This document shows positions 14,319 to 31,846 of a DNA stretch of 34,329 bases, piece after piece. Below the pieces are notes generated by a model. The model did no database searches and had not been told where the DNA came from. It saw nothing but the letters and a program-made list of their open reading frames with translations. The stretch is from NCBI GenBank assembly GCA_022509005.1, contig JAFLUC010000022.1:1-34329 (forward strand). Direction: 5' to 3'. Each line of letters opens with the position of its first letter. Within the stretch, counting starts at the first letter, position 1. This stretch comes from Oscillospiraceae bacterium. GTDB lineage: Bacteria > Bacillota > Clostridia > UBA1381. The translations under genes and the position numbers were made by a program.

Positions 14319-14347
14319 TTGAATTCCACAAATTACAAGTGTATAAT
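14319..14347 (+). promoter_or_regulatory. Plus-strand promoter facing the 3' end of the SOS-controlled gene
   Basis: TTGAAT and TATAAT separated by exactly 17 bases on the plus strand, with a predicted start near 14354. The next plus-strand gene begins 420 bases further on, and the intervening RNA would be antisense to the small gene at 14472-14618. It is the only good promoter in the window without a protein gene behind it. Confidence 0.55.
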
Positions 14348-14353
14348 ATATTT

Positions 14354-14490
14354 GTTTTGGAGCAGAATGTACTGCGCCGTAACACTTTTGTGGGTATAGG
14401 GTGTATTCAGGGTGATTTATGAGATAAAGTGCGGCTGTGGCTGATGCACTTCGCACATCAGCCATCCTTAGTCAGCGCAGTACAAACTTT
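14354..14490 (+). ncRNA. Candidate antisense / structured RNA converging on the small SOS gene
   Basis: RNA inferred from the promoter just upstream; its end is a guess. The 5' part carries TGTACTGCGC (14368-14377) and the 3' part the exact complement GCGCAGTACA (14475-14484), giving a closing stem around about 97 bases. Inside lies the hairpin GGCTGATG...CATCAGCC (14439-14463). From 14472 on it overlaps the last codons of the small gene. No U-rich terminator is seen, so the 3' end might be set by processing. It has no ORF with a ribosome binding site. It could act like the antitoxin RNA of a type I toxin system; it could also be a promoter-like sequence with no transcript. Confidence 0.35.
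14439..14463. repeat. Hairpin in the 3' region of the SOS small gene
   Basis: GGCTGATG and CATCAGCC form an 8-bp stem with a short, partly pairing loop, nine bases past the small gene's stop. The minus strand also offers a competing AAGTGC/GCACTT stem overlapping it. Neither is followed by a strong U-run, so this is a weak terminator at best and possibly an RNA stability or pairing element. Confidence 0.55.
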
Positions 14491-14618
14491 GTGAACAGAC
14501 CGCCTACAAATAAAATGCATGCAGCGGCAAGAGAAGATGCGGCAGCAATAGGCGCTGTTGCTCCGAACGATATAATAAATAAGATAACTGCTATAATGAA
14601 ATATGTACAAGGTTCCAT
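14472..14618 (-). CDS. SOS-controlled small hydrophobic membrane protein (48 aa)
   Basis: A 48-codon gene not recognised as any named family. The product begins MEPCTYFIIAVILFIISF, continues through GATAPIAAASSLAAAC and ends ILFVGGLFTKFVLR. That is one long or two short membrane segments with a Gly/Pro turn near residues 19-23 and a Lys/Arg-containing C-terminus. AAAGGA stands about ten bases before the ATG. Upstream is a perfect consensus promoter with two LexA boxes, so expression should be tightly repressed and DNA-damage induced. Size, hydrophobicity and control recall the LexA-regulated type I toxins TisB and DinQ of E. coli, and membrane-acting SOS division inhibitors of Firmicutes such as YneA and SosA (which are longer). 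Toxicity is inference. Confidence 0.75.
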   Translation of the reverse strand: MEPCTYFIIAVILFIISFGATAPIAAASSLAAACILFVGGLFTKFVLR

Positions 14619-14652
14619 GATATTTATTTCCTTTCAACATTGATCAGTGTCT

Positions 14653-14666
14653 CGAACATCTGTTCG
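14653..14666. promoter_or_regulatory. LexA (SOS) box 2, at the transcription start
   Basis: CGAACATCTGTTCG has the CGAAC-N4-GTTCG form of the Firmicute SOS box, with both half-sites perfect. It covers roughly +2 to +16 of the small gene's transcript, a position that blocks initiation. Confidence 0.85.
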
Positions 14667-14674
14667 TTAAGTTC

Positions 14675-14703
14675 ATTATAGCATACATTTGTTCGCTTGT
14701 CAA
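14675..14703 (-). promoter_or_regulatory. Perfect consensus promoter of the SOS small gene
   Basis: TTGACA, a 17-base spacer and TATAAT on the minus strand: a full sigma-A consensus, the strongest promoter in the window. One LexA box fills the spacer and a second covers the start site, the usual arrangement for a strong but tightly shut damage-response gene. Confidence 0.9.
14682..14695. promoter_or_regulatory. LexA (SOS) box 1, in the promoter spacer
   Basis: Reads CGAACAAATGTATG on the minus strand, one base off CGAAC-N4-GTTYG. It lies between -35 and -10, centred 29 bases from box 2. It also lies just upstream of the plus-strand EamA gene and could touch its promoter. Confidence 0.75.
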
Positions 14704-14774
14704 CAGGTGAATTTATTAGTGTACCATAAATGTACGCATTTTTAAATATTTTCTCAGGAAAAGAGGTTTTAACT

Positions 14775-31487: not shown

Positions 31488-31846
31488 GGGGCTGCAATGG
31501 CTTCGACGGGGACGAGGAAGCTTGATAAGCGGGTAGCGGATGGTTCAGCCGCTTTAACAAGGACTAAATTTAAATATAAACGCAAACGATTACGATTTTG
31601 CTATGGCTGCCTAATTGCAGCCTTTGTCTCCACCGATGAGTACCACGGCATCGGCATGAGGCATCATATTAAGTGGTGAACGTGAACCGGTGATTGACTC
31701 GTAGCCGGTCATGCATAACGAGCCTACCTATACATTTGCTCCGGTTATGAGGTGTTTGTATAGGGAATTCTTTTCATAACCTGCACCCGGAGAAAGTTGG
31801 GTGGATTTGTTTTCGGACACGAGTTCGATTCTCGTCAGCTCCACCA
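31488..31846 (+). ncRNA. ssrA: tmRNA (ssrA)
   Basis: Rescues stalled ribosomes, acting first as alanyl-tRNA and then as message. The 5' end GGGGCTGCAATGGCTTCGAC and the 3' end GTTCGATTCTCGTCAGCTCC-ACCA pair to form the tRNA-like acceptor and T arm; the CCA is encoded. The tag frame at 31582-31614 reads ANDYDFAMAA then TAA, a degradation tag ending in the usual -AA. The length of 359 bases is typical. A hairpin terminator follows at once. No integrase or att repeat is adjacent, although tmRNA 3' ends are common phage sites. Confidence 0.97.

Follow-up and report, generated by a model that had tools for sequence, protein, structure and literature searches.

What does a bacterium gain from a 48-codon hydrophobic open reading frame (ORF) that lies behind a near-ideal promoter covered by LexA boxes? 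This question is raised by a locus in the DNA of an Oscillospiraceae bacterium (Table 1), where the whole stretch analyzed, 34,329 nucleotides in length, is referred to below as the window. The original prediction was that the ORF encodes a new SOS membrane effector that belongs to no recognized family and may slow growth or division after DNA damage. The DNA features on which that proposal was built are all present, including the perfect TTGACA-N17-TATAAT promoter, the exact LexA box over the predicted start site, the ribosome binding site, and the hydrophobic ORF itself. The second box, located in the promoter spacer, had been described as carrying one mismatch; this holds relative to the consensus of the genus, CRAACANNTGTTYG, but not relative to the strict pattern CGAAC-N4-GTTCG, from which it differs at two positions. 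The arrangement exceeds chance by a wide margin.

Table 1. Features of the locus, in window coordinates.
Feature	Position	Strand	Remark
Source DNA, Oscillospiraceae bacterium (Bacillota; Clostridia; UBA1381)	1 to 34,329		GCA_022509005.1, JAFLUC010000022.1
48-codon hydrophobic ORF, MEPCTYFIIAVILFIISFGATAPIAAASSLAAACILFVGGLFTKFVLR	14472..14618	minus	stop codon included
SOS promoter, TTGACA-N17-TATAAT	14675..14703	minus	12/12 consensus positions
-35 element, TTGACA	14698-14703	minus	followed by 17-nt spacer
-10 element, TATAAT	14675-14680	minus
LexA box 1, CGAACAGATGTTCG	14653..14666	minus	covers predicted transcription start; perfect palindrome
LexA box 2, CGAACAAATGTATG	14682..14695	minus	within promoter spacer
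Ribosome binding site, GAAAGGA	14629..14635	minus
Convergent promoter, TTGAAT-N17-TATAAT	14319..14347	plus	points at 3′ end of ORF
Predicted antisense RNA	14354..14618	plus	start inferred from promoter; end shown is nominal (ORF far end)
Inverted repeat, ORF-end arm, TGTACTGCGCTG	14473..14484	minus	12 bp
Inverted repeat, 3′-UTR arm, CGGCGCAGTACA	14368..14379	minus	inside predicted antisense RNA
TGTACCATAAA element	14720..14730	plus	5′ of SOS promoter

The conservation of the ORF has been probed across the genus and beyond. A genus-wide search identified homologues in 12 of the 16 species genomes, including all nine genomes that are at least 90% complete; the four genomes in which the ORF was not found are 71–88% complete. 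The homologues share 47–81% identity with the window copy and have a nearly constant length (45–49 aa), with the residues M1, T5, Y6, F7, L13, G19, G39, G40, T43, and K44 invariant. A purine-rich site is located closely 5′ of the ATG in 12 of 12 homologous loci. The dN/dS ratio is ~0.08–0.2 in comparisons with the window copy and has a median of 0.15 across 49 measurable pairs, and third codon positions are the most variable in the ORF (entropy 1.33 vs 0.72 and 0.33). This substitution pattern indicates that the 48-codon ORF is a real gene under purifying selection. Thus, two expectations of the original prediction, coding constraint and a homologous ORF preceded by LexA boxes in close relatives, were borne out.

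The gene is chromosomal and vertically conserved, and its distribution is narrow. Searches of the 16 other genera of the family returned no copy, and a class-wide sample of 222 genera contains the ORF in one genus only. Of the weak HMM matches in other genera, the two that were inspected (G051, G055) are not this gene. No match was found in IMG/VR or in phage, viral, or plasmid records, and the flanks consist of housekeeping genes, leaving a prophage origin unsupported. The named relatives are metagenome-assembled Clostridia, several of them from animal guts. The neighboring genes vary by species, with truA, ECF transporter, or MATE-like genes on one side and an EamA or TatD-associated radical SAM gene (NCBIfam names) on the other, and the ORF and a promoter convergent on it remain paired while these flanking genes change. 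In three species the ORF shares a contig with lexA at a distance of ~3 kb (G001:C42, G008:C173, and G013:C51; L167, L161, and L173, respectively); in the window genome lexA sits on a different contig. A tmRNA gene is present elsewhere in the window (31488-31846, plus strand; Rfam RF00023, 169 bits).

The product of the ORF is predicted to be a membrane protein, as had been proposed. Members of the family have GRAVY values of 1.4–1.8 and a conserved Lys44, and an AlphaFold2 model built from nine sequences places helices at residues 3–19 and 23–45 (mean pLDDT 78, pTM 0.48). Together with the positive-inside rule, this model suggests a two-helix membrane hairpin with both ends in the cytoplasm. 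At 45–49 aa and with two predicted hydrophobic helices, the protein lies within the size (<60 aa) and hydrophobicity range of type I toxins. The window protein has no match above cut-off in Pfam or NCBIfam, including to the type I toxin families that these databases cover, such as Fst, Ibs, Ldr, Hok, TisB, and DinQ; one of the 12 members matches Ibs_toxin weakly (18.4 bits vs a cut-off of 27). The window protein is likewise unmatched in PHROGs, where other members give only weak matches (E 0.1 or worse), and an assignment as a holin or other phage protein was rejected on the basis of this result and of the absence from IMG/VR and phage records. No significant structural neighbor was found among solved folds (best E 0.66). 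LysM was not matched either, and 48 aa leaves no room for such a domain. Based on these searches, the product would be a previously unnamed membrane protein of one genus, in agreement with the claim that it belongs to no recognized family.

The regulation of the gene was examined using a box consensus, CRAACANNTGTTYG, derived from the sequence CAAACATATGTTTG in the lexA promoter of this same genome. The 2.56-Mb genome has three exact matches, located 5′ of lexA, recA, and the 48-codon ORF. Two other definitions of the genome-wide box were rejected: strict CGAAC-N4-GTTCG is too narrow, as it matches a single site in the genome, that at the ORF promoter, and GAAC-N4-GTTC matches 38 sites that are mostly noise. 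Across the 16 genomes of the genus there are 40 exact sites, 35 of which were assigned using NCBIfam families to recA (11), the ORF (10), lexA (5), uvrB (5), and dinB (4); of the remaining five, one belongs to a copy of the lexA promoter repeated at a contig end, and the other four lie elsewhere. A LexA box is located between the -10 element and the ATG in all 12 loci, with an exact match in 10 and one mismatch in L006 and L007. Most of the loci carry two or three boxes. Further boxes follow box 1 at a 13-nt step in L003–L007, L009, and L010, and L004 has a spacer box identical to box 2 of the window in the same place. Neighboring LexA dimers at the 13-nt spacing would occupy different faces of the helix. 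The boxes at the 13-nt step are arranged head to tail with a CG shared between them (e.g., CGAACAGATGTTCGGAACACTTGTTCGGAATATATGTTCG in L003). LexA control of the ORF, predicted from boxes common to lexA and recA and kept in 12 of 12 loci, is strongly supported, in line with the original prediction, and the ORF is the only conserved small membrane gene in the genus that carries a box.

Several further observations concern the SOS promoters of this genus and family. An TGTNCCATAAA element (often TGTNCCATAAAARGAAC) was noted by eye 5′ of the SOS promoter in ~11 of the 12 loci; it is doubled in L006 and L007, has a changed base in some loci, and is kept although the divergent neighboring gene differs. 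It does not mark a genome-wide regulon, as no genome-wide enrichment was found. In other genera of the family (L169, L170, L179, L188), the boxes of lexA are weaker (e.g., CGAATATTTGTTTG) and the LexA recognition helix carries STATVHARLKKLE in place of SPATVHARLNKLE. Two genera represented by many genomes each, g7 and g15, are mostly without a clear LexA, and the SOS promoters of genus g11 have no small hydrophobic ORF behind them. On contigs C3, C131, and C97 of the window genome, G000, four additional sequences (L015–L018) match the C-terminal half of LexA at scores below the curated cut-off and are likely phage-type repressors or UmuD-like proteins.

The DNA on the far side of the ORF provides the second element of the locus. 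A TTGAA[A/T]-N17-TATAAT promoter that converges on the ORF is located 14–124 nt past the stop codon in nine of the 12 loci, compared with 0.2 loci expected from dinucleotide shuffles for a promoter within 160 nt of the stop. In the window, the -10 element of this promoter ends 124 nt 3′ of the stop. Its hexamers are 98–100% majority-conserved, compared with 56% for the spacer. The three remaining loci are L008, which has a candidate convergent promoter 304 nt away, and L010 and L012, where, in place of the promoter, the end of a convergent gene is found 0 or 66 nt from the ORF stop. The convergent promoter would be expected to give rise to a constitutive antisense RNA. In six of these nine loci, the intrinsic terminator of the ORF mRNA is located 80–82 nt beyond the convergent -10 element, such that the mRNA crosses the antisense promoter and an overlap between the two RNAs is expected. 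The criteria used did not identify an ORF-mRNA terminator in the window locus, L008, or L010–L013, and no antisense-strand terminator is conserved among the loci. On the opposite strand, no reading frame spans the ORF without a stop in every one of the 12 loci, ruling out an antitoxin protein encoded there; an antitoxin, if there is one, would consequently be an RNA. A search of Rfam with the opposite-strand RNA returned no match, and a strongly folded antisense RNA in the window was ruled out, as the sequence folds no better than shuffles (z -0.8). In the window, L003, and L005, a 12-nt pairing between the final codons of the ORF and the 3′ UTR is stronger than in shuffled sequences; this pairing is weaker in L004 and absent in more distant relatives.

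The convergent promoter was missed in the original prediction, and it makes an antisense-controlled type I toxin, rather than a generic SOS effector, the likeliest reading, leaving LexA control and the membrane nature of the product in place. We consider it probable that this is a type I toxin-antitoxin locus that is controlled by LexA and represents a new sequence family, consisting of a predicted two-helix toxin and a constitutive antisense RNA; from these features we infer the antisense RNA, silencing, membrane damage, growth arrest, and toxicity. In the undamaged cell, LexA bound to one to three boxes would shut the near-consensus promoter, and the constitutive promoter just past the stop would supply an antisense RNA complementary to the 3′ region of whatever toxin mRNA arises by leaky transcription. 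Silencing by this RNA would probably proceed through cleavage by RNase III, as in txpA/RatA, or through refolding, as in bsrG/SR4. Upon DNA damage, RecA would trigger the cleavage of LexA, and the strong promoter would then out-produce the antisense RNA. The resulting 45–49-residue protein would enter the membrane as a two-helix hairpin and slow growth. Its likeliest effect would be to weaken the membrane potential; we favor such depolarization by analogy with the action of TisB and DinQ (PMC8309996).

Due to its arrangement and predicted control, the proposed locus is best read, by analogy, as combining the logic of tisB/istR-1 with the geometry found in type I loci of Gram-positive bacteria. 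E. coli tisB likewise encodes a small hydrophobic membrane peptide under LexA control that is induced by DNA damage (as predicted here), and its antitoxin is a constitutive, non-SOS RNA, as proposed for this locus. In contrast to the product described here, TisB is a single amphipathic helix of 29 aa with no sequence similarity to it; IstR-1 is divergent and acts on a 5′ standby site, whereas the RNA here would be convergent and 3′-overlapping, and the LexA operator of tisB is of a different type. The proposed geometry matches that of txpA/RatA and bsrG/SR4 in B. subtilis and of CD2517.1/RCd8 and its kin in C. difficile, in which a small hydrophobic protein is paired with a convergent, 3′-overlapping antisense RNA. 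Overlap at the 3′ ends is described for the C. difficile loci (PMC6563280) and, in a review, for all Gram-positive type I loci described by then (PMC4147584). The sizes of these toxins are comparable (TxpA, 59 aa; C. difficile toxins, 50–53 aa; 45–49 aa here), but searches of Pfam, NCBIfam, and PHROGs revealed no similarity between them and the ORF product, many of the loci reside in prophages or skin elements, and none is reported to be LexA-controlled in the open-licence literature searched. In reviews of type I systems, tisB, dinQ, and symE of E. coli are the only loci listed as SOS-controlled (PMC8309996, PMC6563280, PMC4147584), and an in silico study of the C. difficile LexA regulon leaves toxin-antitoxin systems unmentioned (PMC4234289). 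In the available portion of a gut-metagenome SOS study, LexA binding was confirmed at a death-on-curing gene and no small hydrophobic peptide was seen (PMC3998124). The enterobacterial pairs dinQ/AgrB and symE/SymR are also LexA-controlled type I toxin genes with antisense RNAs, but their arrangement differs from that of this locus; DinQ is a 27-aa single helix, and SymE is ribonuclease-like and not a membrane peptide.

The main rival to the type I reading, which we regard as unlikely, is that the peptide inhibits cell division during the SOS response, standing in for YneA or SosA. The peptide released by LexA cleavage would pack its helices against a membrane protein of the divisome (e.g., FtsW) and thereby delay septation, and the convergent RNA would merely tune its level. 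Small LexA-controlled membrane proteins that block division are widespread (YneA, SosA, SidA), those of the Firmicutes share the box type found here, and the genus conserves no other boxed small membrane gene that could take this role. Moreover, in this genome lexA diverges from the ribosomal-protein side and not from a yneA-like gene, the ORF is ~3 kb from lexA in G001, G008, and G013, and the conserved Gly/Ala residues of helix 2 and the T5-Y6-F7 motif could provide packing surfaces. In contrast to the predicted hairpin, however, the known inhibitors are single-pass proteins with an extracytoplasmic part (LysM in YneA), and no sequence similarity to the ORF product was found. YneA requires both its transmembrane helix and its extracytoplasmic LysM domain (PMC13396833); an identity as a YneA-like protein was rejected, as the ORF product has no LysM match or other extracytoplasmic domain. 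The dedicated, conserved convergent promoter is also typical of type I toxins. We know of no such antisense promoter for a division inhibitor.

Less probable still is that the SOS membrane peptide is a non-toxic modulator, regulating, for example, a transporter, a protease, or a respiratory complex, with the antisense RNA serving for ordinary fine-tuning. There are many small membrane hairpins that act as regulators of larger proteins, and the strong sequence constraint and vertical conservation resemble those of a housekeeping peptide rather than an addiction toxin; no conserved partner gene adjoins the ORF, however, and its neighbors vary by species. It is very improbable that the convergent promoter mainly serves the far-side gene (EamA or radical SAM) through a leader crossing the SOS gene, an arrangement termed an "excludon". 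In the window, the EamA gene (from 14775) is the next plus-strand gene in the direction of the convergent promoter, and the two terminator candidates between them are weak and unconvincing; yet the promoter is kept where the far-side gene changes, and a ~420-nt leader through a whole gene would be unusual. The type I reading has evidence of its own to answer, as three loci are without a close convergent promoter, the toxin mRNA has no recognized terminator in the window, no antisense terminator is conserved, and the window antisense RNA does not fold above shuffles. Also counting against it are TisB and DinQ, which are single short helices and not hairpins, and the chromosomal, vertically conserved location of the gene, as compared with the many type I loci found on mobile elements.

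In E. coli, dormancy and persister formation are tied to antibiotic-induced DNA damage through TisB and DinQ, both SOS-controlled membrane toxins. Within the searchable open-licence literature, SOS-controlled membrane toxins are described solely in enterobacteria, an absence elsewhere that is not proof. If the type I reading is true, gut Clostridia would have evolved the same logic independently, using another protein and another antisense geometry, and membrane-mediated growth arrest during the SOS response would be a convergent strategy rather than an enterobacterial oddity. The conserved SOS regulon of this genus is very small (recA, lexA, dinB, uvrB, and the ORF), and the peptide would therefore represent a large share of the damage response. 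Such a system may shape the survival of uncultured gut Clostridia under quinolones or bile-induced DNA damage.
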